This document shows, in pieces, positions 25,706-49,028 of a DNA stretch of 64,000 nt. The position numbers were made by a program, and so were the translations under genes. Below the pieces are notes generated by a model that was not told the DNA's origin, did not search any database, and worked only from the letters and a program-made list of their open reading frames with translations. The stretch lies in NCBI GenBank assembly GCA_012520575.1, contig JAAYOB010000017.1, forward strand, positions 1 through 64,000, written 5' to 3'. The first letter of the stretch is position 1. Every line of letters begins with the position of its first letter. Origin of the DNA: Candidatus Stramentimicrobium fermentans. GTDB lineage: Bacteria; Atribacterota; Phoenicimicrobiia; Phoenicimicrobiales; Stramentimicrobiaceae.

Positions 25706-25748
25706 TTAACACATTTTAATTACAAGAATGGATACGGAGGAATTGATT

Positions 25749-26840
25749 GTGATTAAATACCAGTTGTCAATACCAGGACCTACGGAATGTGACCCTGAAG
25801 TATTGAATGAACTTAACCGTCCCAGTATTCCACATTATGGTAATCTCTGGATGGATTATTATCTGGAAACGCTCCAGAAATTACAGAAAGTTTATCAAAC
25901 CGAGAATAGTGTCTTTATTATGCCATCTTCAGGCTCAGGAGCACTGGATGCCACCATGGCTAGTTTAAATGGTAAAAAGGGGCTGATTTTAAATAACGGC
26001 ACTTTCGGAGAACGTTTATACGAAATTGCCTCTCATTATTTAAAAGAAATAACTGTTATTAAAAAGGATCCTGGAGAATGGTTTTTAATAGAGGAGGTCG
26101 AAAAATATTTAAAAAAGAATAGGTATGATTTATTGGCAGTGGTGCATGGTGAAACTTCTACTGGTATGGTAAATCATTTGGAAGAGCTATCAAAATTGTG
26201 TGCAAAGAAAGATGTCTTGTTCGTGGTCGATGCCATCTCTTCATTAGGGGGAGTTGAGTTATCGGTTGATAAACTAGGAATTGATTTTTGCGTATCTGCC
26301 AGCCAGAAGGCCTTAGGCTCAGTCCCCGGTTTATCTACCATAGCTATCAGTGCCAAAGGATGGGAAAGAATGGCATCAGAATCTGATATTCCAGGCTGGT
26401 ATCTCAATCTAAGAACATGGCAAAGGTATGAGAAAGAATGGGGAGATTGGCACCCCTTTCCGATTACTTTACCGGTACACCTCTTTTTTGCTTTACACAA
26501 AGCTCTGGACCAGATTTTTGAAGAAGGCCTGGAACAAAGATGGACAAGGCATAAAAGGATTACTGAAATGCTATGCACTGCTTTAGAGCAAGAAGGGATA
26601 TCTTTATTCATAAAAAATAAAGAGTTTCTCCTACCTACAGTTACCTCGGCAGTCTTACCGGGAGAAAGGACCTCCGAAGGATTGCAAACATATTTGAAAG
26701 AGGAGTATGGAATACTGGTAGCAGGGGGCGTTGGACCATTAAGAAAAAAAGTTTTTAGAATAGGACATATGGCTTATTCTGCACAGGAACATTTAATTAA
26801 AAGAGTGATAGCAGGCATTAAGGCTTTCATGAAGATATAA
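25749..26840 (+). CDS. Class V aminotransferase, alanine-glyoxylate type
   Basis: About 363 aa from the GTG at 25749, 8 nt after GGAGG; an ATG at 25728 lies before that site. Fold type I: LSIPGPTECDPEVLNELNRP at the N-terminus (GPT motif), PSSGSGALDATMASL, HGETSTGMVN, Asp in FVVDAISSLGG and the Schiff-base Lys in VSASQKALGSVPGL. The motif set matches serine/alanine-glyoxylate aminotransferases and PucG. Likely transfers an amino group from, or to, a small oxo acid such as glyoxylate or a semialdehyde arising from the aldolases. Last gene of the compact block. Confidence 0.8.
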   Translation: MIKYQLSIPGPTECDPEVLNELNRPSIPHYGNLWMDYYLETLQKLQKVYQTENSVFIMPSSGSGALDATMASLNGKKGLILNNGTFGERLYEIASHYLKEITVIKKDPGEWFLIEEVEKYLKKNRYDLLAVVHGETSTGMVNHLEELSKLCAKKDVLFVVDAISSLGGVELSVDKLGIDFCVSASQKALGSVPGLSTIAISAKGWERMASESDIPGWYLNLRTWQRYEKEWGDWHPFPITLPVHLFFALHKALDQIFEEGLEQRWTRHKRITEMLCTALEQEGISLFIKNKEFLLPTVTSAVLPGERTSEGLQTYLKEEYGILVAGGVGPLRKKVFRIGHMAYSAQEHLIKRVIAGIKAFMKI

Positions 26841-27259: not shown

Positions 27260-28225
27260 ATGAAAATTGTAGTATTAAATGGATACGTGTTGAACCCTGG
27301 CGATCTTAAATGGGATAACTTAAAGGCATTAGGAGATGTAATAATATATGAACACACTTCATTAACAGATGAAGAAGAAATTATCTCACATATAAATGAT
27401 GCTGAAATTGTTTTTACAAGTATGTCACCAATTAAAGCCAAAGCTTTAAACGAATGTCCAAATATAAAATTTATTTGTACATTACACACCGGATACGACA
27501 ATATTGATATAGATCTCGCAAAAGAAAAGGGCATACTAGTTGCTAATATTCCTAATTACGGATCTGAAGCTGTTGCCCAACATGCTATTGCTCTACTATT
27601 AGAAATAACTAATCAGGTCGGTCATCATAACATGGCTGTGCATAAAGGTCGGTGGGAATCTACTAATGAATGGAGTTTTTGGGATTTTCCACTAGTTGAG
27701 CTTAATAGTAAGACCATTGGTATTATTGGATTTGGGAGAATAGGTCAAAAAACTGGCATGATTGCAAAAGCAATAGGTATGAAAGTAATAGCAAATGACT
27801 ATGTTCAGAATGACTCTGGAAGAGAAATAGGGGCATATGTGGAGTTAGATGAATTATTAAGATCATCTGATATCATAGCATTACATTGCCCGTTACTACC
27901 TTCAACAACAGGGATTATAAATAGGAATAATATTGCCAAGATGAAAGATGGAGTTATCATTATAAACAATAGCCGCGGACAGCTTGTAGTTGAGCAAGAT
28001 CTTGCAGATGCTTTAAATAGTGGGAAGGTTCTTGCTGCAGGTTTAGATGTGGTAAGCTCGGAACCTATAAAAAAAGATAATCCTCTCTTAAAGGCTAAAA
28101 ATTGTTTCATTACCCCACACATTTCCTGGGCACCAAGAGAAAGTAGGGAGAGATTACTAGATATCGCTATTAATAATTTGGTTAAATATATTGAAGGTAC
28201 TCCAGTAAATTTGGTTAATAGTTAA
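27260..28225 (+). CDS. NAD-dependent D-2-hydroxyacid dehydrogenase
   Basis: 321 aa. Catalytic and nucleotide domains of the D-isomer-specific family: CTLHTGYDNIDIDLAKEKG, AVAQHAIALLLEI, Rossmann GIIGFGRIGQKTG, catalytic Arg in NNSRGQLVVE, Glu in SSEPIKKDNPL and His in TPHISWAPRES. It would reduce glyoxylate/hydroxypyruvate or another 2-oxo acid, or the reverse. The preceding aminotransferase could generate such an oxo acid. AGGAGTT precedes the ATG. It has its own upstream gap, so it may be independently transcribed. Confidence 0.88.
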   Translation: MKIVVLNGYVLNPGDLKWDNLKALGDVIIYEHTSLTDEEEIISHINDAEIVFTSMSPIKAKALNECPNIKFICTLHTGYDNIDIDLAKEKGILVANIPNYGSEAVAQHAIALLLEITNQVGHHNMAVHKGRWESTNEWSFWDFPLVELNSKTIGIIGFGRIGQKTGMIAKAIGMKVIANDYVQNDSGREIGAYVELDELLRSSDIIALHCPLLPSTTGIINRNNIAKMKDGVIIINNSRGQLVVEQDLADALNSGKVLAAGLDVVSSEPIKKDNPLLKAKNCFITPHISWAPRESRERLLDIAINNLVKYIEGTPVNLVNS

Positions 28226-29219: not shown

Positions 29220-29257
29220 TTTATATTAAATTATAACGTATCGAGGGGTTAATATTG

Positions 29258-30040
29258 ATGAATCCATCAGAAATGTTTGACTTAAGTGGCAAAATAGCAT
29301 TGGTAACTGGAGGAGGCTCAGGCCTTGGGCAATCTAATGCAGTTGCTTTGGCAAAGGCTGGGGCTTCAATTATGTTAGCAGATATTGATTTTGAAAAAGC
29401 GGAAGATACAAGAAAAATAATATCAAAATTTAGTAATCGGGTAGATTGCTTTAAATGTGATGTTAGGTCTGCTATTGAGGTAAATAATTTGGTAGAAAAA
29501 ACTATTCAGGAGTTTGGCAAGATAGATATACTGTTAAACAGTGCAGGAATTATGCCCAAGCAAGAACCAATTTTAGAAATGAGTGAAGATAATTGGAATA
29601 GAGTAATAGATGTTAATCTAAAGGGTACTTTCCTAACTTGCCAGGCTGTTTTAAAGAAAATGATTCCCCAGAAAAAAGGAAGGATAATAAATATGGCTTC
29701 AGCTTCTGGGTTGGTGGTCAATTACAAAAGTTCACATGTTGCTCCATACTGCGCTTCGAAAGCCGGTGTAATTCTTTTAACTAAAGCTCTGGCTGTAGAA
29801 GTAGCTCCTTATGGAATCACAGTGAATGCAATTAGTCCGGCATATATGAAAACTCAAATGACAGCATTGAAATGGGAAAAAGATAAAAATGATTATCTTA
29901 AAAAAGTGTCTATGCTTCCAGTCGGCAGAATAGGCATTCCAGAAGAATTGAGCGGTCTCGTTATTTATCTGGCTTCCGATTGCTCTGCTTTTATGACCGG
30001 ATCAAATGTAGTTATTGATGGTGGGCTTACATGTTGGTAG
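29258..30040 (+). CDS. Short-chain dehydrogenase/reductase (1)
   Basis: 260 aa from the ATG at 29258 (GAGGGG upstream; a TTG directly before is possible). Classical SDR: TGGGSGLGQS dinucleotide loop, Asp at the end of beta-2 (LADIDF) favouring NAD, CDVRS, NSAGIMPKQ, catalytic Ser in MASASG and YCASK with Tyr/Lys, and a C-terminal GSNVVIDGG. It should oxidise a secondary alcohol. First gene of the operon; substrate presumably the hydroxy acid feeding the downstream dehydrogenase complex. Confidence 0.85.
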   Translation: MNPSEMFDLSGKIALVTGGGSGLGQSNAVALAKAGASIMLADIDFEKAEDTRKIISKFSNRVDCFKCDVRSAIEVNNLVEKTIQEFGKIDILLNSAGIMPKQEPILEMSEDNWNRVIDVNLKGTFLTCQAVLKKMIPQKKGRIINMASASGLVVNYKSSHVAPYCASKAGVILLTKALAVEVAPYGITVNAISPAYMKTQMTALKWEKDKNDYLKKVSMLPVGRIGIPEELSGLVIYLASDCSAFMTGSNVVIDGGLTCW

Positions 30041-30076: not shown

Positions 30077-31030
30077 ATGAATTATAGCGGTGGTTTTTTG
30101 CAAAATATGTACGTTAATTTACTTAAAGCTAGAATGTTAGAAGAAAAAATTGTTGAGCTATATCATCAGGGCAGAGTTCCTGGCTCAGTACATTCAGGTG
30201 TTGGAGAGGAAGCTACTTTTGTTGGAGGGTGCTTAGCTCTCAACGAAGATGATTATATGATGACTACTCACAGAGCAGTTTGTGCTAATTGGACAAAGGG
30301 AATCGAAATAAATAAAATATTTTGCGATTTATTTGGGAAAAAAGAAGGTACTAATTGCGGGAAAGGAGCTGCAATTCGTATTTGTAGTGAAAAAGTATTG
30401 GGGATGAGCGGAACACAGGGAGGGGTTTTTGTAATTGCCACAGGAGCAGCTCTATCTTTAAAATTGTTAAATAAAAAAAGTGTAGTTTTGGCTTTTTTCG
30501 GGGACAATACATCAAATAGGGGAACCTTTCATGAATCTTTAAATATAGCCTCTCTTTGGAAACTACCAGTAATATTTTTGTGTGATAATAATCAATACGG
30601 TATCTCAATTAACATAAAAGACTCTACATCAGTTGAAAATATAGCTGATCGTGGTGTTGCGTATAATATACCTACAAAAATTGTTGATGGTAATTCGATT
30701 CTCGCTGTATATGAAGCGACAAAAGAAGCTGTAAACCACGCAAAATCTGGAAATGGGCCATACTTAATTGAGGCTAAAACTTATCGTTTTAGAGGCCATA
30801 TGGAAGGGGATCAGCGCTCTTATAGAACAAGAGAAGAAGAAAGTCAATGGATGGAAAAATGTCCCCTTCGTAGATTTGAAAATAAATTGCTCGAACAAGG
30901 GGTAATAACAGATACATGGATAGTTACAGAGAAGAATAAAATTGAGAAAGAAATTGAAAATGCTATCAGTTTTGCTGAAAATAGCATAGATCCCGGTAAG
31001 GAAGATTTGTTCAAAGATATTTATGCTTAG
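30077..31030 (+). CDS. 2-oxoacid dehydrogenase E1 component, alpha subunit
   Basis: 317 aa, PdhA/AcoA type. RVPGSVHSGVGEEATFVG near the N-terminus, TTHRAVCANWTKG, and the thiamine diphosphate motif GDNTSNRGTFHE ... CDNNQYGIS (GDG of the consensus is GDN; the metal Asn is kept), then YRFRGHMEGD with the regulatory-loop His. It decarboxylates a 2-oxo acid together with the beta subunit encoded 73 nt downstream. Substrates in the family include pyruvate, acetoin and branched-chain 2-oxo acids. Context with Ptb/Buk suggests an acyl-CoA that is turned into ATP. Confidence 0.87.
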   Translation: MNYSGGFLQNMYVNLLKARMLEEKIVELYHQGRVPGSVHSGVGEEATFVGGCLALNEDDYMMTTHRAVCANWTKGIEINKIFCDLFGKKEGTNCGKGAAIRICSEKVLGMSGTQGGVFVIATGAALSLKLLNKKSVVLAFFGDNTSNRGTFHESLNIASLWKLPVIFLCDNNQYGISINIKDSTSVENIADRGVAYNIPTKIVDGNSILAVYEATKEAVNHAKSGNGPYLIEAKTYRFRGHMEGDQRSYRTREEESQWMEKCPLRRFENKLLEQGVITDTWIVTEKNKIEKEIENAISFAENSIDPGKEDLFKDIYA

Positions 31031-31103: not shown

Positions 31104-32081
31104 ATGAGGAAAATAACATTTGCCCAAGCCTTAAATGAGGCCTTACACGAAGAAATGATGAGAGATGAGAAGGTTTTTATTTATGGTCAAGATGTGGCAG
31201 TTGTGGGTGGACTTTGGAAAGTAACAACAGGGCTGTTGGATAAATTTGGTCCAGATAGGGTTAAGGACACACCGCTTTCTGAAGCAGCAATGGCAGGTAT
31301 GGCAGTGGGTGCTGCTATTACCGGCACTAGACCCATAGTTGAAATAATGTTCGCAGATTTTTTAGCAGTATGTTTTGATGAAGTTTATAATAAAGCAGCA
31401 AAATGGCGTTATGTTCATGGTGGGATGTTTGAAGTGCCACTAGTAATCAGGTCTTCCATGGGAGCAACCTTTGGAGGCAGTGCTGAGCATGCCCAGTGCA
31501 ATGAAGCATTATTTATGCATACTCCTGGCATAAAAATTGTTCTTCCTTCAACTCCTTATGATGCAAAGGGCTTGTTAAAAACAGCAATACGTGACAATAA
31601 TCCAGTACTCTTTTTTGAGCACCGAGCTTTGTATAATACAAAAGGAGAGGTTCCAGAAGAAGAATATACTATTCCATTCGGAAAAGCTGAGATTAAAAAA
31701 CAAGGAGAAGATATCACAGTAGTAGCAACTTCCAGAATGGTAAGCAGATCTTTAAGTGCAGCAGAAGATTTAAAAAAAGAAGGAATCAATATCGAAGTTA
31801 TTGATCCAAAAACCATTGTACCACTTGACATCGAAGCAATCAACCAATCGGTTAAAAAAACCGGTCACTTAGTTATAGTAGAAGAAGGGAATAGAACAGG
31901 AGGGGTTGGTGCAGAAATAACTGCTTTAGTTCAAGAAAATGTTTTCGACTTTCTCAAAAAACCTATATTGAGAATTTCTAGCTTAGATGTACCAATACCC
32001 TTTAATGACAATCTGAAAAATATGGTTATTCCAAGCACAACCAAGATTGTCGAAGAAATTAAAACATTAATTAAAAAATAA
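31104..32081 (+). CDS. 2-oxoacid dehydrogenase E1 component, beta subunit
   Basis: 325 aa, PdhB/AcoB type: TFAQALNEALHEEMMRDEK, FIYGQDVAVVGGLWKVT, RVKDTPLSEAAMAGMAVGAA, EIMFADFLAVCFDEVYNKAAK, RSSMGATFGGSAEHAQ and the C-terminal transketolase domain with EVIDPKTIVPLD and VEEGNRTGG. All family landmarks are in place and the length is normal. Pairs with the upstream alpha subunit. Confidence 0.9.
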   Translation: MRKITFAQALNEALHEEMMRDEKVFIYGQDVAVVGGLWKVTTGLLDKFGPDRVKDTPLSEAAMAGMAVGAAITGTRPIVEIMFADFLAVCFDEVYNKAAKWRYVHGGMFEVPLVIRSSMGATFGGSAEHAQCNEALFMHTPGIKIVLPSTPYDAKGLLKTAIRDNNPVLFFEHRALYNTKGEVPEEEYTIPFGKAEIKKQGEDITVVATSRMVSRSLSAAEDLKKEGINIEVIDPKTIVPLDIEAINQSVKKTGHLVIVEEGNRTGGVGAEITALVQENVFDFLKKPILRISSLDVPIPFNDNLKNMVIPSTTKIVEEIKTLIKK

Positions 32082-32113: not shown

Positions 32114-32377
32114 ATGTTTACCGAAGTGTTAATGCCTAAGGGTTCTCCAGATATGGAGACAGGTGTCATAATTAAATGGGAAAAAAAGGAAGGTGCAGCA
32201 GTAGAAAAAGCTGAAGAAATTGCCAATGTAGAAACAGACAAAGCAGTAGTTGTTGTAGAGGCGCCTTGTTCTGGAATATTAAATATTTTAGCGCAAGAAG
32301 GGGAAGAGGTGCCAGTTGGCAATGTTATTGGAGCAATTTATGATTCTAAAGATGAGTATGAGAAAAGCTTGAGATAA
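32114..32377 (+). CDS. Stand-alone lipoyl-domain protein (E2 lipoyl carrier)
   Basis: 87 aa, preceded by AAGGAGGAAAG. A complete lipoyl domain: VLMPKGSPDMETGVIIKW, then VETDKAVVVVEAP with the lipoyl-accepting Lys in DKA, SGILNILAQEGEEVPVG. The stop follows about ten residues after the domain, so no linker, subunit-binding domain or catalytic domain is attached. The catalytic half is a separate gene 56 nt downstream in another frame. It would shuttle the acyl group as a free carrier, like GcvH. Confidence 0.85.
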   Translation: MFTEVLMPKGSPDMETGVIIKWEKKEGAAVEKAEEIANVETDKAVVVVEAPCSGILNILAQEGEEVPVGNVIGAIYDSKDEYEKSLR

Positions 32378-32433
32378 TCAATAAATAACATAATAAAATA
32401 GAATGAAAATATACTGCAGGAGTATTAATAAGG

Positions 32434-33156
32434 ATGGAAGCAGAGTCTAAGGAAGTAAAGTTAAGCCCTCTTAGAAAAGCAATGATAAGAAATTTTCATT
32501 GGAGTAATCAAGTTGCAGCTCAGTCCACTGTTGGTATCGAAATAAATATGTCGAATTTTTTAAATGTTAAAAAAGAACTGGATCCTTTATGTCTAAACAA
32601 TTATCATTTAAAACTTACGTTTCTACCCCTTTTGGTTTATTCAATAGCTAGAACGCTAAACAAACACCCTGCTCTTAATGTAGCATTAGATTTAGAAAAT
32701 AATTCTATAATCCGTCATGCAGATATTAACATTGGCTTTGCCGTGGCTATTCAAAGAAGAGGAATGTCAGGTATTTTGGTACCAGTAATAACCCAAGCTA
32801 ACAAAAAAACATTAAGAGAAATGATTTCTTTGATCAAAGATTTGAGCGAAAAGGCGATTCAGGGCTCTATCACACCTGAAGAAATGAAAGGAGGAACGTT
32901 CTCTGTTTCAAGTGTAGGCAGCTATGCTGTAGACTTCATCCAACCACTCTTAACTTATCCGGAAGGAGCTATTCTGGGAATTACGCGCGCTAAAGATAAG
33001 CCAATAGTCGAAAAAGGGAAAATAATCATTGCTCCAATGGCTAATTTCATTATTACAGTTGACCATAGGATAATAGACGGTGTTCCCACCTATGAATTTT
33101 TGACAGATCTTAAGAACTACATTGAAAATTTCAATAAAGTGGAAATTGTTTTTTAA
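32434..33156 (+). CDS. 2-oxoacid dehydrogenase E2 acyltransferase, catalytic domain only
   Basis: 240 aa, starting within the catalytic fold: KLSPLRKAMIRNFHWSNQVAAQ, HADINIGFAVAIQRRGMSG, GGTFSVSSVGSYAVDF and the active-site VDHRIIDGVPTYEFL with His and Asp. Usual E2 proteins are 380-450 aa with one or more lipoyl domains and a peripheral subunit-binding domain at the N-terminus; both are missing. It transfers the acyl group from the lipoyl protein upstream to CoA. No E3 (dihydrolipoamide dehydrogenase) gene is in the window, so E3 must come from elsewhere. Confidence 0.87.
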   Translation: MEAESKEVKLSPLRKAMIRNFHWSNQVAAQSTVGIEINMSNFLNVKKELDPLCLNNYHLKLTFLPLLVYSIARTLNKHPALNVALDLENNSIIRHADINIGFAVAIQRRGMSGILVPVITQANKKTLREMISLIKDLSEKAIQGSITPEEMKGGTFSVSSVGSYAVDFIQPLLTYPEGAILGITRAKDKPIVEKGKIIIAPMANFIITVDHRIIDGVPTYEFLTDLKNYIENFNKVEIVF

Positions 33157-33251: not shown

Positions 33252-34637
33252 ATTCTAAAAAGATTTTTACCAAAAATCATAAATAAAAGAGAATTGTCAA
33301 GCCATGGCTGTAAAAGTGGTAGAAAAATAGCCCTTGATATTATAGAGAAGACTCTGAATGAGATAAATCCATATAATGAAGTTTTGGAAAATATTAGATT
33401 TCAGGATAATATCCTTGCCGTCGATACGGAGCTAGAAACTATTACATTTGATTTAAAAAAGATAAATAATATTTTTGTGTTAGGTGGTGGCAAAGGTTCC
33501 CTATTAAGTGCATTAGCCCTAAATAAGGTTCTGGGAGATAAAATTACTGAAAGTATTATTGCAGTTAAAGGTATTGAATCGCAAAAAATTGATAAAATAG
33601 ATATTATTAAAACTGGGCATCCCTTGCCAGATGATGGAAGTATTAAAGCTGCAAAAGAAATAATAAGAATAGCCAATTTAGCAACAGAGAATGATTTAGT
33701 ATTTTTTATTGGCTCTAGCGGTACGTCTTCAATGATTAGCCTCCCTGTAGAAAGTGTTTCTTTGAAAGATATGCAAATCCTATATAATTTATTGCTTAAT
33801 AATATCAATAATATACAAGAAATAAACTGTGTGCGTAAGCATATTTCTTTAATTTCAGGCGGTCGCTTAGGTCAGTACATTTCTCCGGGAATTATTTTAA
33901 ATTTTCAGCCTGGGAATAAAAAGGAACAATTTAAAACAATGCCATGGCCCGACTTAATTTGGGAAGATCCTACTACTTTTCAGGATGCAATCTTTGTTTT
34001 AAAAAAATATCATATTTGGGAAGATACACCTATTTCAATAAAAAAGCACTTGTCCGAAGGAGTAGAAGGAAAACAACAGGAAACTGTTAAAAATATAGGT
34101 CCACTTAAAGTATATAATATTCCAATGAGCTATAGATATAGTGCTTGCATTGCGGCAAAAAGGATTGCCGAGGAACTTGGCTACAATGCAATGATTTTAT
34201 CAACAATGTTAGAGGGCGAAAGTAAAGAAGTAGGAATAGCTTTAGCCAGTATTGCTAAAGACATTGTGAAGTTCAATCATCCTATAAAGCCACCCTGTGT
34301 ATTAATTGCAGGTGGAGAAACATCGGTTAAAGTTACTAATAAAGATGGTAAAGGTGGCAGAAACCAAGAATTTGTTTTAGGGTTAGCTGGTAATATTTCC
34401 GGTTACAACATAACTGTTGCGGCAATTGATTCTGAAGGAACTGACGGTCCCACTCAAGTTGCTGGTGGAATTGCCGATGGTGGCACTGCAAAAACATGTC
34501 TAGAAAAAAATATAGATCTTTTTGGGCAGTTAAATAAGAATAACTCTTTTTATGTATTAGATAGTTTGCAAGACCATATAATAACAGGGCCCACAAATGT
34601 TGCTGTGCAAAGCATAAAAATAGTGGTTGTGCAGTAA
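33252..34637 (+). CDS. Glycerate 2-kinase family (GckA/MOFRL), atypical loops, probable ATT start
   Basis: The conserved N-terminus (NKRELSSHGCKSGRKIALDII) extends upstream of the TTG at 33294. The only start with a good ribosome site (GGAGAG, 7 nt away) is ATT at 33252, giving 461 aa. DUF4147 domain then C-terminal MOFRL domain: FVLGGGKGS, KTGHPLPDDGSI, VRKHISLISGGRLG, and GGETSVKV ... GGRNQEFVLGLA. Family members phosphorylate glycerate to 2-phosphoglycerate. Two loops deviate: the usual SGGGSALL reads GSSGTSSM, and the Lys of KGGRLA is Ser. A different hydroxy acid may be the substrate. An enolase-like gene follows after 37 nt. Confidence 0.75.
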   Translation: MLKRFLPKIINKRELSSHGCKSGRKIALDIIEKTLNEINPYNEVLENIRFQDNILAVDTELETITFDLKKINNIFVLGGGKGSLLSALALNKVLGDKITESIIAVKGIESQKIDKIDIIKTGHPLPDDGSIKAAKEIIRIANLATENDLVFFIGSSGTSSMISLPVESVSLKDMQILYNLLLNNINNIQEINCVRKHISLISGGRLGQYISPGIILNFQPGNKKEQFKTMPWPDLIWEDPTTFQDAIFVLKKYHIWEDTPISIKKHLSEGVEGKQQETVKNIGPLKVYNIPMSYRYSACIAAKRIAEELGYNAMILSTMLEGESKEVGIALASIAKDIVKFNHPIKPPCVLIAGGETSVKVTNKDGKGGRNQEFVLGLAGNISGYNITVAAIDSEGTDGPTQVAGGIADGGTAKTCLEKNIDLFGQLNKNNSFYVLDSLQDHIITGPTNVAVQSIKIVVVQ

Positions 34638-34674
34638 AAGTATTTATTTGAAACAATGTAAAAAGGTTTTTTAA

Positions 34675-35937
34675 ATGGATAAAATAAAAAAAGTAACGGC
34701 TAGAGAGATACTATCTTTAATGGCATTACCGACAATTGAGGTTGAAATTGAAACAGAAAGTGGAACCATTGGCAGGGCAGCTGTCGATATCGGAACCTCA
34801 ATAGGTAAGTATGAAGCTCTAACGCTATTTGATGGCGGAAAAAGGCTTTTTGGTCAAGGAAATCTTAAAGCGGTTCAAGCTGTCAATGAAAAAATTGCTC
34901 CTCAATTAATCGGATTGGAAATTACGGAACAAAAGACTATTGATAGTATAATGCTCGAATTGGATGGTACACCCAACAAAAATAATTTAGGTGGAAATTC
35001 ATTGCTAGGTGTGTCTATGGCAATAGCAAAAACGGCAGCCATGTCATTACGAGTACCTCTGCACAAGTACTTATGCCCTGATAATAAAGAGTATATGATC
35101 CCTGTTCCTATTTTTGTTATGATTCACGGTGGCGTTGGATTTGCTAATCAACTTGCATTGGAAGATTTTTGTATAATTCCCACAGGTTTTAATACTTTTA
35201 AAGAAGCTATAGAAAGTGGAATTGAAATATACTATAAACTTTATGATTTGTTGAAGGATAAACATTTGGTAGCCCCGGGGATTACTTTTGTGCCACAAAT
35301 GAGTAAAACACGGGAAGTTTTAGACTGTTTATTAAAGTCTATCAAACTATGTGGGTATCAGGAAAACTATACTTTAGGTTTAGACGCCGCAGCAACAGAA
35401 TGTTTTAATGCTAACCAGGGAACGTATAATATAGACCAAGAGGAAATGGATAAGTCGCAAACAGTAGATTTTTATAAGAAAATAATAAAGGAATATCCAA
35501 TTTTTTATTTAGAGGACCCTTTTGATGAAGAAGACATTGAAAGTTACCAAAAAATACAGCATAACGGTATTCAAATTGTTGGAGATGATTTAATTGCCTC
35601 TAATAAACAAAGATTAAAGATGTCTTCTGATTTAAAATTAATAAACAGTACTGTATTAAAGCCAAATCAAATTGGAACAATTACAGAATTATTGGAAATT
35701 GCTAAATATGCAAACCAGAATAATATTGACATTATTTCATCAATCAGAAGTAAAAGTACAAATGAACTTTTTTTGGCTGATTTTTCCATTGCAGTAAATG
35801 CTGTCCAAATTAAGGCAGGGTGTGTAGTTGGATACCCTGCAACGGGGATATACAATAGATTCCTTGAAATAGAAGATAAAAATAAATATAAATATCAAGG
35901 ACCATTTTTAAAAAATAAATATTCATTATTAACATAG
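34675..35937 (+). CDS. Divergent enolase-like protein (1), catalytic residues replaced
   Basis: 420 aa, full enolase length and fold. Retained: metal Asp in LGLDAAATE, Glu in YLEDPFDEED, Asp in IVGDDLI, base Lys in LKPNQIGTITE and Lys in VQIKAG. Changed: SRGNP is SLMALP, the mobile loop GASTG is GTSIG, the His-bearing GGEHADN is GGVGFAN, QEFM is EDFC (Glu to Asp), the acid Glu segment GDEGG is APGIT, and SHRSGE is SIRSKS. True 2-phosphoglycerate hydration would be compromised. A related reaction on a substituted 2-phospho-3-hydroxy acid is plausible, given the kinase upstream. Paralogue at 46503 shares the GTSxGKYEA loop. Confidence 0.8.
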   Translation: MDKIKKVTAREILSLMALPTIEVEIETESGTIGRAAVDIGTSIGKYEALTLFDGGKRLFGQGNLKAVQAVNEKIAPQLIGLEITEQKTIDSIMLELDGTPNKNNLGGNSLLGVSMAIAKTAAMSLRVPLHKYLCPDNKEYMIPVPIFVMIHGGVGFANQLALEDFCIIPTGFNTFKEAIESGIEIYYKLYDLLKDKHLVAPGITFVPQMSKTREVLDCLLKSIKLCGYQENYTLGLDAAATECFNANQGTYNIDQEEMDKSQTVDFYKKIIKEYPIFYLEDPFDEEDIESYQKIQHNGIQIVGDDLIASNKQRLKMSSDLKLINSTVLKPNQIGTITELLEIAKYANQNNIDIISSIRSKSTNELFLADFSIAVNAVQIKAGCVVGYPATGIYNRFLEIEDKNKYKYQGPFLKNKYSLLT

Positions 35938-35952
35938 ATAAAGGGGGACTGT

Positions 35953-36774
35953 ATGAGACTACTTGAGGGGAAAGTTGCCATCATAACTGGCGGGGGAAGT
36001 GGAATTGGTAAAGGTATTGCTGAGGTGTTTGCACGTGAAAATGCAAGCTTAGTTATTACAGGGATTGATTTCCTGGACACATCTGATAATCATTGCGAAA
36101 GCAAACAAATTGATGGCTATAAAAATGCTGTTAGCTTTGTTCAAGAATTAACAGAAATGGGTATTAAAGCCATAGCGCTAGAATCGAATGTTACTTTATG
36201 GAATGATGTTCAAAAAATGGTAGATGAAACTATGAATACTTTTGGGAAAATAGATATTTTAGTTAACAATGCCGGGATTGCTACTAGAAACAGACTAGAG
36301 GATTTAAGTGAACAGGAATGGGATAATTTAATGGAAGTTAATAGTAAGGGTGTTTTTCTATGTTGCAAAGCGGTTGTTCCAATTATGAAAAAAAATCGAA
36401 CTGGAAAAATAATAAACATAGCCTCTGTTTCTGGAAAAAGAGGTTATCCCGGACAAAGCCACTATTGCGCATCAAAGTTCGCAGTAGTCGGATTTACTAA
36501 TGCCATAGCAATGGAATTGGCGCCGGATAATATTAATGTGAATGCTATTTGTCCTGGCATTGTAGCAACAAGAATGTGGGAATATTCAAGAAAAAAGAAA
36601 GCATTGCCTGGTGAAGATGGAGAGGCTGCCTTTCAAAGAACCGTGAAAGAGGGAATCCCTCTAGGTGTACCGCAAACGCCTGCAGCTATTGGTGAAACTG
36701 CATTATTTTTGGCTTTATCAGAGCACATTACTGGCCAGGCTATAAATGTTGATGGGGGAATGGTTTTTCCATAA
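35953..36774 (+). CDS. Short-chain dehydrogenase/reductase (2)
   Basis: 273 aa, 15 nt after the enolase-like gene. TGGGSGIGKGIAEVF, ITGIDFLD (Asp favours NAD), NNAGIATRN, IASVSGKRGYPGQS with catalytic Ser, HYCASKFA with Tyr/Lys, GQAINVDGG. An insertion of about 20 residues (SDNHCESKQIDGYKN) after beta-2 is unusual for classical SDRs. Related to gluconate 5-dehydrogenase and 3-oxoacyl reductases. Presumably acts on an intermediate of the kinase/enolase-like pathway. Confidence 0.84.
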   Translation: MRLLEGKVAIITGGGSGIGKGIAEVFARENASLVITGIDFLDTSDNHCESKQIDGYKNAVSFVQELTEMGIKAIALESNVTLWNDVQKMVDETMNTFGKIDILVNNAGIATRNRLEDLSEQEWDNLMEVNSKGVFLCCKAVVPIMKKNRTGKIINIASVSGKRGYPGQSHYCASKFAVVGFTNAIAMELAPDNINVNAICPGIVATRMWEYSRKKKALPGEDGEAAFQRTVKEGIPLGVPQTPAAIGETALFLALSEHITGQAINVDGGMVFP

Positions 36775-36804
36775 AATAAAAAAATAAAAAGGACTTTAGG
36801 AAAT

Positions 36805-37860
36805 ATGTTGAAAATATTAACTATAAATCCCGGTTCAACTTCCACTAAAATAGCAATCTATGAAAATAAAAATTGCATTGAGAATCACTCTATTTTACAT
36901 AATCAAAAAGTACTTGATATGCCCCTATTCCCAGATCAACTAATTTATCGGCAAAAAGAAATTACGGAGTACCTACAAAAAAGATCACATGCAATCGAAA
37001 CAATTGATGCATTAGCTGTCAGAGGGGGACGATTAAAACCTTTGAGCTCCGGAGTGTACTCTGTTAATGAAGCAATGGTCAAAGATGCAGAAGCTGGTTT
37101 ACAAGGTTCACATCCCGCAAATTTAGCCGTAGTGATGGCATGGGACTTATTTAAAAAATATAAAATACCAGCTTATACTGTTGATCCAATTAGTGTTGAT
37201 GAATTAGAAGATTTTGTTAGAATAACAGGGATAAAAGGTATACAGAGGAACTGTCTTTCCCACGCCTTGAATATGAAAGCTGTTGCCAAAAAGGCTGCAT
37301 ACGATATAGGTAAGCCATATGAAGAATCTAATTTTATCATTGCTCATTTGGGTGGAGGAGGCTCCATTGGTGCCCATAAAAAAGGCAGGATGGTAGATGT
37401 CTATAACAGTGATAAAGAGGGTCCTTTTTCAGTTGAAAGAGCAGGAAACCTACCTTCGTTAGACCTTATTAGCTATCTTAATGAAGGAAAGCGATCTTTT
37501 GCACAATCTATAGATGAAATTACTCATAAATCAGGATTGTACAGCTATTTTGAGTCGCGTGATATGGCACATATTGAAGTCCAGTCTAAAAATGATAAAA
37601 AGTTAGCCATTATACTGCAGGCGTATATCTATAATATTTCTAAGTACGTTTGCAGTCTTCTACCCATACTTAATGGTGACTTAGATGCTGTGATTCTGAC
37701 AGGGGGAGTTTGTCACTCTAGCTTTATCCAAGAAATGTTGAATGAAAAACTCAGTTTTTTGGGGAAAATTATGTTTTATCCTGGTGAGTTTGAAAACGAA
37801 TCACTAGCTCACAATGTTTTTTTAGCCATAAAAGGAGATATTATAATAAATGAATATTAA
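36805..37860 (+). CDS. buk: Butyrate kinase family acid kinase
   Basis: 351 aa, the butyrate kinase length. ASKHA acetokinase fold: NPGSTSTKIAIYE, AVRGGRLKPLSSGVYSVN, YTVDPISVDELEDFVRITG, RNCLSHALNMKAVAKKAA, IAHLGGGGSIGAH, and ILTGGVCHS near the C-terminus. It converts an acyl phosphate and ADP to the acid and ATP. It overlaps ptb by 11 nt. Acyl-chain preference (butyryl, isobutyryl, propionyl) cannot be told, and the product of the upstream 2-oxoacid dehydrogenase would decide it. Confidence 0.9.
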   Translation: MLKILTINPGSTSTKIAIYENKNCIENHSILHNQKVLDMPLFPDQLIYRQKEITEYLQKRSHAIETIDALAVRGGRLKPLSSGVYSVNEAMVKDAEAGLQGSHPANLAVVMAWDLFKKYKIPAYTVDPISVDELEDFVRITGIKGIQRNCLSHALNMKAVAKKAAYDIGKPYEESNFIIAHLGGGGSIGAHKKGRMVDVYNSDKEGPFSVERAGNLPSLDLISYLNEGKRSFAQSIDEITHKSGLYSYFESRDMAHIEVQSKNDKKLAIILQAYIYNISKYVCSLLPILNGDLDAVILTGGVCHSSFIQEMLNEKLSFLGKIMFYPGEFENESLAHNVFLAIKGDIIINEY

Positions 37861-38728
37861 CACCATCTCTTTTGATTTTATTAAAAAACAAGCAGAAAAA
37901 AAACAATCAAATATTAGAATTATTCTTGTTTGTCCAGATGATTCATTACTAAATGCTGCAGAGCTTGCAAAGAAAAATAACATAGCCCAATTTATTGTTA
38001 TTGACACTAAAAAAAACAAACTGAGAGATACAATAATTGCTGAAAACTATGAAGAAGTAATGCGAAAAGTAGCTAGTCTTATTCTAAAAGGGGAAGCAGA
38101 CACCATGGCTAAGGGCTTAATTAATACATCAATATTTCTGAAGGAAATAATTCATTCAAAAATTAGCAACCAACTTTTAACTCATACCTCTATTGTTGAA
38201 CTTAAAGATTCAAAAAAAATTTTCATTATTTCTGACGGCACCGTTATTCCTAATCCAACGCTGGAGCAAAAAGTTACAATTATAGAAAATTCAATTAAAT
38301 GTGCCAATATCATGGGGATAGAAACCCCAAAGATTGCTCTCTTAAGTGCAAATGAATTAATTTTAAGAGGAATAGAATCAGGTTATGACTGTGCTATATT
38401 GAGCAAGATGGCTGAGAGGGGACAGATAAATAAAAAGAAAATTGTTTTAGATGGACCAATGTCTTTAGATACTGCAGTATCAGAGGAGGCAGCAAACAAT
38501 AAGAAACTTTCGTTTGCATTTAAACCACCTGCCGATATTCTAATAACCCCTAATTTGGAAAACGGAGCTTTTTTGATCAAGGCAGCTGTCTATATGGGAG
38601 GGGCTAAAGTAGCTGGGTTGCTGTGGGGAGCAAGCTATCCAATAATATTAACTTCGAGAGCAGATTCTGAGGAAGCTAAATATATATCTATTTGTTTATG
38701 TAGTTTAGCAAAAAGTAAAATTCAATGA
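37850..38728 (+). CDS. ptb: Phosphate butyryltransferase family
   Basis: 292 aa; ATG lies inside the end of buk, so the two are coupled. PTA/PTB fold: IILVCPDDSLLNAAELAKKNNI, GEADTMAKGLINTSIFLKEI, THTSIVEL, ISDGTVIPNPTLEQKVTIIENS, KIALLSANE, VLDGPMSLDTAVS and the C-terminal ILTSRADSEEAKYISICL. It makes acyl phosphate from acyl-CoA and phosphate. With buk it conserves the thioester energy of the dehydrogenase complex as ATP. Confidence 0.9.
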   Translation: MNINTISFDFIKKQAEKKQSNIRIILVCPDDSLLNAAELAKKNNIAQFIVIDTKKNKLRDTIIAENYEEVMRKVASLILKGEADTMAKGLINTSIFLKEIIHSKISNQLLTHTSIVELKDSKKIFIISDGTVIPNPTLEQKVTIIENSIKCANIMGIETPKIALLSANELILRGIESGYDCAILSKMAERGQINKKKIVLDGPMSLDTAVSEEAANNKKLSFAFKPPADILITPNLENGAFLIKAAVYMGGAKVAGLLWGASYPIILTSRADSEEAKYISICLCSLAKSKIQ

Positions 38729-38789: not shown

Positions 38790-38842
38790 ATATTGTAATA
38801 TATTAAAAGATAACAATTTTATAGATATAATTGGAGTTAAAA

Positions 38843-39607
38843 TTGATTCCTTTTGAAAGAAGAGAAAAGATATTAGCATTATTAAAAAAAGAAAAATTTT
38901 GTAAAATTAGTTATCTTAGTAAACGCCTGAATGCATCTTACATGACAGTGCATAGAATGTTAAATGAGCTAGAGAGAGAAGGGCTTGTTAAGAAAGTGCA
39001 TGGAGGGGTTAGGCTAAATGAATCTACTTCTGCAAAAATAATGTTTGAGTTACGCATGAATGTTAACTTGCCCCAAAAAAGAGAGATTGCAAAGAAAGCA
39101 ATAGATTTTATAGAAGAAGATGATATTATTTTTTTAGATTCTTCTACCACTTGTTATGTATTAGCAAAAGAATTGTCTGCTCGTGACATAAATAATATAA
39201 CGCTTGTTACAACTTCCCCATTTATTATACATGAGCTTTCTGATTGTATAAATATGAATATAATTTCTACTGGAGGACAATTGGATACTAGAACTAAAGG
39301 CTTTGTAGGGCCATTGGCTATTAATACGCTGGACCAGGTACACATAAGCACAGCCTTTATTTCATCCGGAGCAATTAGTGTTGAACAAGGAATTAAAAGT
39401 TCATTCCCGTTTATAGTTGAGATAAGGAAAAGAGTAATTGAAAAAGCTAACAAGGTTATTTTTATTGGTGACAACTCAAAGTTTCATAATAACAGTCTGC
39501 TAACAATAGCACCGTTAAGTAAGATTGACTTAATAATAACAGATTCACAATTAGATCAAAAAATACTTAATTATTTTTTGGAAAAGGGTATTAAAATAAT
39601 TAATTAG
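38843..39607 (+). CDS. DeoR-family transcriptional regulator
   Basis: About 254 aa from the TTG at 38843, 6 nt after TTGGAG; the upstream TTG at 38831 is that ribosome site. N-terminal helix-turn-helix (ERREKILALLKKEKF, KISYLSKRLNASYMTVHRMLNELEREGLVKKVHGGV) and the DeoR sugar-phosphate sensor domain (EEDDIIFLDSSTTCYVLAKEL, ISTGGQLDTRTKGFVGPLA, VIFIGDNSKF). Such regulators sense phosphorylated intermediates, fitting the phosphorylating kinase in the operon before it and the transporters after it. Confidence 0.87.
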   Translation: MIPFERREKILALLKKEKFCKISYLSKRLNASYMTVHRMLNELEREGLVKKVHGGVRLNESTSAKIMFELRMNVNLPQKREIAKKAIDFIEEDDIIFLDSSTTCYVLAKELSARDINNITLVTTSPFIIHELSDCINMNIISTGGQLDTRTKGFVGPLAINTLDQVHISTAFISSGAISVEQGIKSSFPFIVEIRKRVIEKANKVIFIGDNSKFHNNSLLTIAPLSKIDLIITDSQLDQKILNYFLEKGIKIIN

Positions 39608-39650: not shown

Positions 39651-39745
39651 AAGGAGGTGAAGTGTTTTTATATCTTCTACCTGACTGTGCCGGTAGTTAT
39701 AGTAAAAAATTAGATTTAATAAAAGGAGAAAAAAGACATGAATAA
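39651..39745 (+). CDS. Possible 27-codon leader ORF with strong ribosome site, overlapping dctP
   Basis: AAGGAGGTGA at 39651-39660 directly precedes GTG 39662, which opens a 27-residue frame (MFLYLLPDCAGSYSKK...). Its TAA (39743-39745) overlaps the dctP ATG (39738). The geometry suits translational coupling, though the gap from ribosome site to GTG is short (1-2 nt). Alternatively the site is a stand-by/stabilising element, as at 1511 and 15205. dctP has its own AAAGGAGA. Confidence 0.3.
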
Positions 39746-40733
39746 AAAATTTAGATTAGTAATGTTAGGATTAGTACTTGCAATTTTCGCATTAACGATG
39801 TCAGCATTTGGAGCTCCGAAAGTAATGAAAATTGGTCATGAAATGAACCCCGAACACCCCGAACATCAAGCATTACTAAAATTCGAAGAATTGTTTGAAG
39901 AAAGAACTAATGGAGAATTTGATGTACAGATATTCCCATCTAATCAATTGGGAAGTTTTTTTGTACAGATTCAAAATATGAAGCAGAATATTCAGCAAGG
40001 ACACTTAAATGGTTTAGGCTGGCCGGGACATTTTGTTCCAGAATTTTTCTTATTTAATACCGCCTTTGCCTTCAAAAATTTTGATGAATATGCGAAAGCA
40101 ATCAATTCCCCGGTAGGTCTGGAAATTAGACAGAAATTGATTGATGAGCATGGGATAAGATTAGTGTCTGTGTCTGAATGGAGAAGAGGTGTTAGAAACC
40201 TTTTATGCAAGCATCCGATAAATTCAGTTGATGAGGTGGTAGGTTTAAAGATAAGAGTTCCTGAAACTCCTTCTTATATTGAATCTTGGAAAGCATTAGG
40301 TGCATCCCCAACCCCAGTTGCTTTTGGAGAAGTGTATCTTGCCCTACAACAGGGTGTTGTTGATGCAATGGAATGCCCTTTAGATCTGATATATTCTCAG
40401 AAATTCTATGAACCTGCTAAATACATTTCTCTTACCGGGCACCTACCTGAATTAGTTGCCTTAGGTGTAACGGAAAAATTTTATCAAAGTTTAACTGATG
40501 AACAAAAGGTAATTCTCGAAGAATGTGTTACAGAAGCCGGCATCTACAATCGTGAAATAGTAGCAAACAGCGAAGCAGATATAAAAGCAAAGATGGCAGA
40601 AGCTGGTGTTAAATATATCGAAGTTGATCAGAATGCTTTTTGGGAAAAAGGTAAGAATGCAGCATACAATTTAGAAGAGCTGGAAATTTGGCCAAAAGGT
40701 TTCTACGATAGAATTGCCGAATCAATAAAATAA
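39738..40733 (+). CDS. dctP: TRAP transporter periplasmic solute-binding protein, DctP type
   Basis: 331 aa. Signal peptide 1-25 (LVLAIFALTMSAFG), no lipobox. DctP landmarks: KIGHEMNPEHPEHQALLKFEE, IQIFPSNQLG-like VQIFPSNQLG, the carboxylate-binding Arg in GLKIRVPETPSYIESWKALGA, PTPVAFGEVYLALQQGVVDAME and the long C-terminal helix TDEQKVILEECV. Binds an organic or sugar acid in the periplasm and hands it to DctQM with sodium or proton coupling. Preceded by the DeoR gene and followed by a 13-bp hairpin. Confidence 0.9.
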   Translation: MNKKFRLVMLGLVLAIFALTMSAFGAPKVMKIGHEMNPEHPEHQALLKFEELFEERTNGEFDVQIFPSNQLGSFFVQIQNMKQNIQQGHLNGLGWPGHFVPEFFLFNTAFAFKNFDEYAKAINSPVGLEIRQKLIDEHGIRLVSVSEWRRGVRNLLCKHPINSVDEVVGLKIRVPETPSYIESWKALGASPTPVAFGEVYLALQQGVVDAMECPLDLIYSQKFYEPAKYISLTGHLPELVALGVTEKFYQSLTDEQKVILEECVTEAGIYNREIVANSEADIKAKMAEAGVKYIEVDQNAFWEKGKNAAYNLEELEIWPKGFYDRIAESIK

Positions 40734-40779: not shown

Positions 40780-40814
40780 AAAGCAGGCAGTTTTTGCAAC
40801 TAACTGCCTGCTTT
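40780..40814 (+). terminator. 13-bp perfect hairpin between dctP and dctQ
   Basis: AAAGCAGGCAGTT (40780-40792) pairs perfectly with AACTGCCTGCTTT (40802-40814) around a 9-nt loop. Only three T residues follow, so attenuation or mRNA protection is likelier than full termination. An in-frame upstream start of dctQ at 40794 falls inside the loop and is rejected. Confidence 0.65.
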
Positions 40815-46502: not shown

Positions 46503-47741
46503 TTGTTAAATAATATCAAGTCTGTAAGAGGTTTAGAAATTATTATTAGCCCAGGTATTCCCACTATAAAAGCAGTTGTTGAAACAGAAGGTAACCATAA
46601 AGGAGTCGCCACAATTCCTATAGGGACATCTCGGGGGAAGTACGAAGCTAACTATTTATACGACAATGAAGCAAGATTTAATGGTAAGGGTATGAGGAAG
46701 GCAGTAAAAAATATCAATGATGTTATTTCAAAGAGATTAAGAGGTGTAGAAGTATCCAATCAAAGAACTATCGATGAAATAATGCTTGAGCTTGATGGAA
46801 CTGAAGATAAATCTAAGTTAGGAGCTAATGCAATACTTGCAGTTTCTCTCGCTGCTGCAAGGGCAGGGGCAGAAACTGCAGGCCTACCACTATTTCGCTA
46901 TTTAGGTGGATTGTATGCCTATAGAATTCCGGATATTTCAACTACTGTGATTGCAGGAAGTAAATTTTCTCCATCACAAATAGATTTTGAGGATTATACT
47001 TATGTATTTTCCGGTTTCAGTTCGATAATGGATTCTATAGAAGCCCTCGCTAAAGTGTTTGGAAAACTTGAAGAAAATATTAGAAAAAAATATGGACCAA
47101 TCCCATCAGTAGTCGGGGGAGCACTTGCACCACCATTAAAGAGTAACGAAGAAGCCCTAGATTATATGATGGAGAGCGTATCTTTTTTTAACCTTGAAAA
47201 GCATATAGGAATAGGAATCGATATAGTTGGTGAGGAACTCTGCTCATCCCAGCCATTCACCTATTCTGTTAATGGGGGAAATTTATCAAAAGAGGAATAT
47301 ATAGAATACCTTAAGAATTTGACTAAGATATATCCAATTGTTTTCTTAGAAGACCCTTTTGGAGAGGATGATTTTGAGGGGTTTTCTCAACTAACTAATC
47401 AAATAGGAGATAGAATAAATATTGTTGGAGATGATCTGTTTGTAACAAATTATAGAAGAATTGAGGAAGGTATTAAAAAAACTGCGGGGAATGCAATTAT
47501 TTTTAAAATTAATCAAGCTGGTACTCTGACTGAAGCCCTTGAAGCTGCCCGGATAGCTAAGGAAAATAATTTTAAAATTATTGCTTCTGGCCGTTCAAGT
47601 GATTCTAATGATGATTTTGTATCCGACATAGCCGTAGCGCTTTCTGCCAATATAATGAAAAGTGGACCACTTGTCAGTGGCGAGAGAATTTCAAAATTTA
47701 ATAGATTGATTGAAATCGAGGAAATTATTAATAAAACCTAA
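46503..47741 (+). CDS. Divergent enolase-like protein (2), catalytic residues replaced
   Basis: 412 aa, TTG start 5 nt after AGGAGG. Enolase fold with metal residues kept (GIDIVGEEL, FLEDPFGEDD, IVGDDLFVTN) and Lys in FKINQAGTLTE and MKSGP. Changed: mobile loop GASTG is GTSRG, the GGEHADN His region is AGSKFSPS, QEF is FEDY, the acid-Glu segment GDEGGYAP is VGGALAP, and SHRSGE is SGRSSD. The changes parallel those at 34675, so the two form one subfamily distinct from housekeeping enolase. Neighbours (mandelate-racemase-type dehydratase, LarA) place it in sugar-acid metabolism. Confidence 0.8.
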   Translation: MLNNIKSVRGLEIIISPGIPTIKAVVETEGNHKGVATIPIGTSRGKYEANYLYDNEARFNGKGMRKAVKNINDVISKRLRGVEVSNQRTIDEIMLELDGTEDKSKLGANAILAVSLAAARAGAETAGLPLFRYLGGLYAYRIPDISTTVIAGSKFSPSQIDFEDYTYVFSGFSSIMDSIEALAKVFGKLEENIRKKYGPIPSVVGGALAPPLKSNEEALDYMMESVSFFNLEKHIGIGIDIVGEELCSSQPFTYSVNGGNLSKEEYIEYLKNLTKIYPIVFLEDPFGEDDFEGFSQLTNQIGDRINIVGDDLFVTNYRRIEEGIKKTAGNAIIFKINQAGTLTEALEAARIAKENNFKIIASGRSSDSNDDFVSDIAVALSANIMKSGPLVSGERISKFNRLIEIEEIINKT

Positions 47742-47897: not shown

Positions 47898-49028
47898 TTG
47901 AAAATCACACATATTGAGGCATATGATTTAAATATTCCTTGTGATATCAAATATAGTGCTGCATGGGCACCTGGGGTAAGTGAAGAATTCCGTAAATTCA
48001 CATTAGTAATAGTACGAACAGATGAGGGTCTGAGTGGGTATGGCGGTGGTAATGGACATTTTGCTGCAAGGATTGTCAAAATAGTCAAACCTTTCTTGCT
48101 TGGTGAAAATCCCTTTTTTGTAGAAAAATATATCAGAATTCTCCGTGATATTGGAGGAGTTTGGGCAATAGAAATAGCATTGTGGGATATAATAGGCAAA
48201 GCAGCTAATCTTCCGTTATATATGCTATGGGGGGCCTCTCGTACAAAGATTCCAGCCTACGCTAGCACTTGTGTTAGTGGACTACCAGGTAATTTTGACG
48301 AAAGAATCCAGCAAGTTAAAAGATATTATAATGAAGGATTTCAAGCAATCAAAATCCGACTTCACTTTGATACAATAGAGGAAGATTTGCAATATGTTGA
48401 TACCGTTATCGAGGCTGTAGGGGGAAAAGTAGATATAATGGTAGATGCAAATCAAGCCACATTAATGATTCCTTCCGCCGTTAAGAGCCCCAGATGGGAT
48501 TACCGCAGAGCCTTGAGAACCGCCAAAGAATTAGAAAAAAGAGGGGTTCTGTGGTTGGAAGAACCATTAGGTCGTTGGGACTTTGACGAATTAGCTCGCC
48601 TTAGAGAGAATACGGAAATATATATTGCCGGTGGAGAAATGAATAATGCTTTGCATGATTTCCGGTTAATGGTAGAGAAAAAATCTTATGACATAATTCA
48701 ACCGGATGTAGTAAATCAATCACTAACAGAGGTTATGAAAATAAAAGGTCTGTGCGAAACATTCAATATTCATTTTGTTCCACATCATGGTGTTAGTGCA
48801 ATTGGCTTAGCAGCAACTATTCATATCTTATGTACATATGATCATTGGACTTTTATGGAATATATATATGACCCCCCTTACCGTACAATTGAAAATTATC
48901 AATGTTTGGGTGGAATTGTAAGAACACCAATATTAGTAGATGGAACAGGCTCTATTTCCCCACCACTTGGACCAGGTCTTGGGATAGTAATCGATGAAGG
49001 CAAGATTAAAGAATATAAAGTGGACTGA
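47898..49028 (+). CDS. Mandelate racemase/muconate lactonizing enzyme family, likely sugar-acid dehydratase
   Basis: 376 aa, TTG start after AAGGAGGT. Enolase-superfamily capping domain and barrel. Catalytic Lys152 in AIKIRL, metal ligands Asp183 (MVDANQ), Glu221 (WLEEPL) and Glu247 (IAGGEMN), and the His/Asp dyad Asp270 (QPDVV) and His297 (VPHHG). The dyad identifies the mandelate-racemase subgroup, most members of which dehydrate aldonic or aldaric acids to 2-keto-3-deoxy acids. K-x-R instead of K-x-K at the barrel Lys pair may restrict it to one epimer. Specific acid unknown. Confidence 0.85.
   Translation: MKITHIEAYDLNIPCDIKYSAAWAPGVSEEFRKFTLVIVRTDEGLSGYGGGNGHFAARIVKIVKPFLLGENPFFVEKYIRILRDIGGVWAIEIALWDIIGKAANLPLYMLWGASRTKIPAYASTCVSGLPGNFDERIQQVKRYYNEGFQAIKIRLHFDTIEEDLQYVDTVIEAVGGKVDIMVDANQATLMIPSAVKSPRWDYRRALRTAKELEKRGVLWLEEPLGRWDFDELARLRENTEIYIAGGEMNNALHDFRLMVEKKSYDIIQPDVVNQSLTEVMKIKGLCETFNIHFVPHHGVSAIGLAATIHILCTYDHWTFMEYIYDPPYRTIENYQCLGGIVRTPILVDGTGSISPPLGPGLGIVIDEGKIKEYKVD

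Follow-up and report, generated by a model that had tools for sequence, protein, structure and literature searches.

A divergent kinase-enolase pair in Candidatus Stramentimicrobium fermentans is an outlying member of a widespread module that may act on substituted glycerates

The window analysed here, a stretch of 64,000 nucleotides from Candidatus Stramentimicrobium fermentans (positions 1 to 64,000 of the forward strand of contig JAAYOB010000017.1, assembly GCA_012520575.1), encodes a homologue of the DUF4147/MOFRL glycerate 2-kinases, GckX (33252..34637, + strand), followed by a divergent enolase, EnoX (34675..35937, + strand). Both genes are intact and adjacent, and lie in the same operon as a 2-oxoacid dehydrogenase, a butyrate-kinase family acyl kinase (Buk) and a phosphotransacylase homologue (Ptb). 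Amongst the examples found of a widespread kinase-enolase pair, GckX/EnoX is the most divergent, and it represents an outlying variant. On balance, we lean towards the view that the module to which it belongs runs a sequence resembling lower glycolysis on a glycerate substituted at C3; every reaction and every substrate discussed below we infer from what was observed, namely gene content, pairing, co-evolution and residue changes. An earlier note on region 33252-38728 had described the operon as a parallel lower glycolysis for a dihydroxy acid, and its account of the parts was borne out: alignment confirmed a glycerate 2-kinase homologue with altered loops (SGGGSALL to GSSGTSSM and KGGRL to SGGRL), the catalytic region of the enolase homologue is indeed rebuilt, with E211, H159 and H373 lost, and two short-chain dehydrogenases (SDRs), a 2-oxoacid dehydrogenase, Ptb and Buk are all present.

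Distribution of the kinase-enolase pair

Genome contigs were scanned with two kinases, GckX and that of a second genome of the same phylum (G010), and this yielded 58 loci. Within the phylum, a related kinase was encountered in only one other genome (G010) of 50, where the genes are ordered DctM-DctP-DctQ-LarA-enolase-kinase-GntR-hydroxyacid dehydrogenase. The G010-type gene order is repeated in Deltaproteobacteria, Desulfuromonadaceae, Syntrophaceae, Synergistota and Bacillota; variants of it occur in Kiloniellaceae, Citrobacter amalonaticus and Desulfovibrio, and there are plasmid copies in Salmonella and Paraburkholderia. The clade of enolase-linked kinases spans the Deltaproteobacteria, Synergistota, Bacillota and the Alpha-, Beta- and Gammaproteobacteria, together with the relative of the window. 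A divergent enolase adjoins the kinase in 17 of the 18 clade members outside the window, and was found beside none of 74 other DUF4147 kinases, for which flanks of unequal size, up to 10 kb (44 kinases) or 1.5 kb (30 kinases), were inspected.

The usual neighbours of the pair are a tripartite ATP-independent periplasmic (TRAP) transporter, the racemase homologue LarA, which adjoins the pair in 11 loci, and a 2-hydroxyacid dehydrogenase. The clusters of Citrobacter and Salmonella add a major facilitator superfamily (MFS) transporter, an ATP-grasp gene resembling D-Ala-D-Ala ligase and a pyruvate kinase; E. coli genomes were found to share nothing of the Citrobacter cluster except csiR. The co-occurrence of kinase, enolase and Ptb/Buk, proposed as a check in the earlier note, held in part: the kinase-enolase pair recurs and co-evolves, whilst Ptb and Buk stand beside it in the window only and were rejected as conserved parts of the module.

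Other arrangements were also recorded. In two enterobacterial loci (L051:7143-14757 and L094:9001-16412) the ATP-grasp gene lies between the kinase and the pyruvate kinase. In Paraburkholderia (L093:13090-25443) the pair is accompanied by an ABC transporter, an FAD oxidoreductase, RidA, GhrA and a class II aldolase, neighbours that may hint at an amino-acid-derived substrate. In an archaeal metagenome-assembled genome (L092:1828-4380) a DUF4147 kinase directly adjoins an enolase with canonical residues, encoded on the opposite strand.

Co-evolution and coordinated residue changes

The linked kinases form one clade (support 100/98) with GckX as its sister (100/97 in the kinase tree), and the linked enolases likewise form one clade (99/93), which was less firm once one long branch had been removed. 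Pairwise distances amongst the kinases and amongst their enolases were closely correlated (r 0.92, or 0.94 with the window pair; 0 of 5000 permutations were as high), a correlation that partly reflects shared species history.

Enolase residues are given in yeast numbering. The linked enolases carry E373 in 17 of 17 sequences, R38 in 15 and L159 in 14 (the changes A38R, H159L and H373E), whilst K345, K396 and the metal ligands are kept in all 17 and position 211 is occupied by Glu in 15 sequences and by Asp in the other two. Canonical enolase controls had A38, H159, E211 and H373 in 23 of 23 cases. For the kinases, the catalytic residues are K47 and R325 (T. maritima numbering); R325 was found to be replaced by Pro in all 16 complete linked kinases, and to be retained in all 43 readable outgroup kinases. 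Because the replacements are coordinated on both enzymes that would act on the same intermediate, the sequences argue that the intermediate of the linked pair differs from 2-phosphoglycerate.

The kinase and enolase of the window

Translation of GckX most probably begins at an ATT codon at 33252 rather than at the alternative TTG at 33294, since the former is preceded by an AAGGAG ribosome-binding site and the N-terminal residues that it adds (IINKRELSSHG) resemble the YIKN..LLSHG of relatives. The DUF4147 and MOFRL domains are both present (PF13660, 6e-44; PF05161, 8e-27), K47 and R325 are both retained, and the protein falls short of the NCBIfam glycerate-kinase equivalog cut-offs (175.8 against 550 bits, and 123.7 against 670 bits). 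A canonical second glycerate kinase, which the kinase half of a parallel pathway would have implied, was not found: the 1.58 Mb genome encodes no DUF4147 kinase besides GckX, other classes of glycerate kinase not having been searched. For the enolase half, a separate canonical enolase, the presence of which had been set beforehand as a check, lies on another contig of the same genome (G000:C50:129504-130769).

EnoX exceeds the TIGR01060 enolase cut-off (360.8 against 300 bits; PF00113, 5e-61), and structure prediction returned a complete enolase fold with both domains (pLDDT 87; TM-scores of 0.92-0.94 to solved enolases). It retains the metal ligands D246/E295/D320, K345, K396, S39, R374 and S375, and bears the replacements S36I, A38T, H159G, Q167E, E168D, D210P, E211G, H373I, G376K and E377S, its VAPGITF aligning without gaps with the VGDEGGF of the canonical enolase of the same genome. 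The E168/E211 acid pair, H159 and H373 are thus represented in EnoX by D168, G211, G159 and I373.

A second divergent enolase, Eno2 (46503..47741, + strand), is 36% identical to EnoX and has I36, T38, E167 and D168 in common with it. Its active site displays D168, G211, F159 and G373, with the metal ligands and both lysines (K345 and K396) retained; Gly211 was read by hand, placing VVGGALAP on GDEGGFAP without a gap, the alignment itself being gapped at 210/211. Both EnoX and Eno2 are intact open frames. Their branches are very long (2.2-2.5 changes per site) and were grouped together in one tree, although this join is not safe, and an attempt to root the two in the enolase tree was left without a placement. 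As relatives of EnoX, two further enolases were considered and rejected as canonical, namely that of G099, the best match amongst the 101 genomes searched first, and a duplicate enolase in one of the genomes searched with profiles. Separately, a relative of the window (L026:780-2090) encodes an enolase variant with H373A and E168D, E211 being kept, within a sugar-utilisation cluster containing PfkB kinases.

GckX/EnoX corresponds to the module in that a kinase sister to the linked clade adjoins a non-canonical enolase, but departs from the core signature (R38, L159 and E373 with E211 kept, and P325 in the kinase), having T38, G159, I373 and G211, and R325 in the kinase.

Proposed pathway and points against it

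In the core module, the acid would be taken up by the TRAP or MFS transporter, LarA, where present, would set its C2 by epimerisation, and the DUF4147 kinase would phosphorylate O2. The specialised enolase would then produce an enol phosphate, K345 abstracting H2 and the 3-OH being expelled, and pyruvate kinase would convert this to a 2-oxo-3-deoxy acid with formation of ATP, using a copy of its own in the Enterobacteria and the housekeeping enzyme elsewhere. The 2-hydroxyacid dehydrogenase would probably act on the resulting 2-oxo acid. Within the window, E1/E2 would turn the 2-oxo acid into an acyl-CoA, from which Ptb/Buk would release an acid with formation of ATP. The earlier note had remarked upon the lack of a pyruvate kinase; none is present in the operon, but one is encoded outside it, at G000:C4, and the dephosphorylation step may be accounted for by analogy, since the clusters of Citrobacter and Salmonella have pyruvate kinases of their own.

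Several observations weigh against this reading. EnoX is without E211, has E168 shortened to Asp and bears none of the R38, L159 and E373 of the core signature; since E211 is the acid assisting departure of the 3-OH, the dehydration step of EnoX is doubtful, whereas the wider family has retained this residue. GckX retains R325, unlike the core kinases. The position of EnoX in the tree is unstable, its very long branch meeting that of Eno2 and shifting when Eno2 is removed, and no EnoX orthologue was found: a contig scan with the single protein gave no relative, and sets of 103 and 386 genomes searched with EnoX/Eno2 profiles yielded canonical enolases at most. The window also encodes a LarA-like racemase (49189..50553, + strand; PF09861, 7e-41) with all catalytic and cofactor-binding residues, those for the nickel-pincer nucleotide (NPN), but neither LarC (no PF01969 match) nor LarE (no TIGR00268 match over the cut-off) was found in this genome, which is 98% complete. 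Lastly, one clade member, from R. rhizogenes K84, has no enolase nearby. The same kinase, on plasmid pAtK84c (L127:14920-17779), was rejected as a clue to substrate, having insertion sequences and a class III aminotransferase beside it and no enolase. For the window pair, the substituted-glycerate scheme of the earlier note is possible: the specialisation of the pair away from glycerate and its place in a catabolic operon agree with it, whilst the missing E211 and the lack of conservation of Ptb/Buk do not.

Candidate substrates and alternative explanations

Clues to the substrate of the core module come from its residues and its neighbours. The module LarA has intact catalytic and nickel-cofactor residues and a selectivity pattern of E, F, D and H/Q, including E175 and H/Q359, which matches no described group exactly, the nearest being the gluconate epimerases with E, V, A and H (PMC11770544). 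In support of a working LarA in the module, LarC was present in every one of the five genomes tested that have LarA beside the pair, and absent from Citrobacter, the cluster of which lacks LarA. The core-module DctP is closest to the PDB structures 4p47, 7bbr, 4p9k, 4pdd, 4xeq and 4pdh. Several of these structures bind D-erythronate or pantoate, the ligands considered being those of 4p9k, 4pdd, 4pdh and 4pak; literature on erythronate as a TRAP ligand was not found in the papers searched. Together, the LarA and TRAP signatures suggest, with low confidence, a tetronate or a similar small acid bearing hydroxyl groups. Within the core family a tetronate (erythronate or threonate) appears the likeliest substrate, and a tetronate-like hydroxylated acid fits the residue changes and the LarA signature better than the 2,3-dihydroxybutyrate named in the earlier note.

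In the window itself, 2,3-dihydroxybutyrate could be phosphorylated and converted by way of phosphoenol-2-oxobutyrate, 2-oxobutyrate and propionyl-CoA to propionate and ATP, a route we regard as unlikely. I373 of EnoX could leave space for a methyl group, and E1/E2 and Ptb/Buk lie within the operon. Members of the LarA family racemise glycerate and epimerise tartrates, aldonates and all 2,3-dihydroxybutyrates (PMC11770544), and the selectivity residues of the window LarA (F, M, W and E), a short-chain signature, would be compatible with 2,3-dihydroxybutyrate or a different small acid. However, EnoX is without the E211 that dehydration would call for, the genes for LarA maturation were not found in the genome, and Ptb/Buk, which are not conserved partners elsewhere, were rejected as too weak a pointer to substrate identity.

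The exact chemistry of EnoX and Eno2, both without E211 and H373, is uncertain. It is conceivable, if improbable, that they no longer eliminate water and use metal-stabilised enolate chemistry for epimerisation or for an acid-free leaving group. Consistent with this, both have G211 and E167-D168 instead of Q-E, both have lost H159 and H373 within intact open frames, and the phosphate-side R374 and S375 are retained; yet D168 or E167 could still serve as the acid, the logic of the operon suits dehydration, and only two such sequences are known. We entertain only tentatively the broader proposal that EnoX and Eno2 constitute a new catalytic class within the true enolase family, one that would have discarded the acid removing the 3-OH and turned the metal-enolate machinery on a 2-phosphorylated acid to another reaction (epimerisation, or an elimination whose leaving group requires no protonation). 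The setting would be a phosphorylative pathway for sugar acids, the ordinary members of which would make up the widespread undescribed module.

Ordinary use of glycerate, by a dedicated route from D-glycerate to phosphoenolpyruvate with paralogues of unchanged specificity, is less probable again. A precedent exists in P. aeruginosa, where a DUF4147-type glycerate kinase and the pyruvate kinase PykF share the PA1498-1502 cluster (PMC12694930), and glycerate is racemised by LarA homologues (PMC11770544); the short-chain signature of the window LarA and the retention of K47 and R325 in GckX would also fit. Against this, residues invariant in 23 canonical enolases have been swapped for the same letters across many lineages, all 16 linked kinases have lost R325, and a second enolase would be pointless for 2-phosphoglycerate in a genome that already has a canonical one. 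It is very improbable that EnoX and Eno2 are paralogues in decay, or ones that have given up catalysis for a structural or regulatory role. Although their branches are very long and no orthologues were found, both reading frames are open and encode every metal ligand and the two lysines, and EnoX, the predicted fold of which is complete, shares a tightly spaced operon with the partner kinase.

Relationship to known systems

EnoX resembles enolase (EC 4.2.1.11, TIGR01060) in its fold and in D246/E295/D320, K345, K396, R374 and S375, but is without E211, H159 and H373 and has D168, whilst its linked relatives differ from enolase in R38, L159 and E373, with E211 kept. GckX has the two domains and the K47 of class II glycerate 2-kinases (DUF4147/MOFRL; TM1585, PH0495, TtuD and PA1499), with 1x3l and 2b8n as PDB relatives, but its nucleotide and substrate loops have been rewritten, and the linked kinases have Pro at R325. 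Pairing of a glycerate kinase with a pyruvate kinase dedicated to it is already known from the PA1498-1502 glyoxylate/glycerate cluster and similar operons (PMC12694930); unlike the module, that cluster has no enolase, a word absent from PMC12694930, and uses the housekeeping one, with glycerate as its substrate. The module LarA shares intact catalytic and cofactor residues with the described nickel-pincer racemases and epimerases, whereas the papers describing these mention no enolase partners (PMC7583248, PMC11770544). The adjacent Buk and Ptb homologues are reminiscent of ATP-forming acid release in butyrate formation, but Ptb falls under the equivalog cut-off.

No description of a kinase-linked, non-glycolytic clade of enolases was found in the literature searched, which is weak evidence, as subscription papers lay mostly outside the search. 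Enolase-like sugar-acid dehydratases (MR/MLE and others) are well mapped, whilst the glycolytic enolase family has, to our knowledge, been taken to have a single reaction. If the pathway proposed for the kinase-enolase module is correct, the family would have a second physiological substrate, and there would be a route of phosphorylated sugar-acid dehydration from which ATP is recovered by pyruvate kinase. Annotation pipelines label the linked enolase genes 'eno', and metabolic models would be misled as a result.

The window operon and its surroundings

The operon is ordered SDR1-E1alpha-E1beta-lipoyl-E2-GckX-EnoX-SDR2-Buk-Ptb, successive genes from SDR1 to Ptb being spaced by -11 to +95 nt and all lying on the + strand. 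The first gene, SDR1 (29255..30040), matches a GolD/DthD-like dehydrogenase profile (247.8 bits), and is followed by the E1 alpha (30077..31030; TIGR03182, 295.9 bits, under the cut-off of 393.85) and E1 beta (31104..32081; NF006667, 388 bits, cut-off 321) subunits of the 2-oxoacid dehydrogenase. The E2 component is split in two (32114-33156), into a free-standing lipoyl-domain protein (32114..32377; NF011457, 3.4e-20 across the lipoyl region) and a catalytic domain without a lipoyl domain (32434..33156; NF008814, 2.3e-43, matching just the C-terminal part of that profile). Downstream of EnoX are SDR2 (35953..36774; PF00106, 7.5e-59), Buk (36805..37860; TIGR02707, 354 bits, cut-off 289) and Ptb (37850..38728; PF01515, 1.4e-31; TIGR02706, 198.8 bits, below the cut-off of 410.5).

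On the 3' side of Ptb, a DeoR-family regulator (38831..39607, +; PF00455, 2.6e-44) follows after 102 nt, and after a further 130 nt the TRAP transporter gene DctP (39738..40733, +; best PDB relatives 4ovt, 4pc9 and 4p1e), succeeded by DctQ-like (40794-41399) and DctM (41396-42673) genes. Eno2 belongs to a separate run, TctCBA-Eno2-MR/MLE dehydratase-like-LarA, in which the third element is an enolase-superfamily protein resembling sugar-acid dehydratases (47898..49028, +; NF040866, 150.8 bits, under the cut-off). Upstream of the operon are a class V aminotransferase (25728..26840, +; PF00266, 5.4e-22) and a 2-hydroxyacid dehydrogenase (27260..28225, +; PF02826, 4.4e-56), a type of partner that accompanies the pair in other genomes as well. 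All component types of the core module (TRAP transporter, LarA-like protein, enolase, kinase and hydroxyacid dehydrogenase) lie within 25 kb in the window; the second divergent enolase, the LarA-like gene, the TRAP transporter and the upstream 2-hydroxyacid dehydrogenase had been missed by the earlier note. At 22107-25705, a homologue of pyrophosphate-type phosphofructokinase is flanked by two pyridoxal-phosphate (PLP) enzymes resembling DgaE/SelA.

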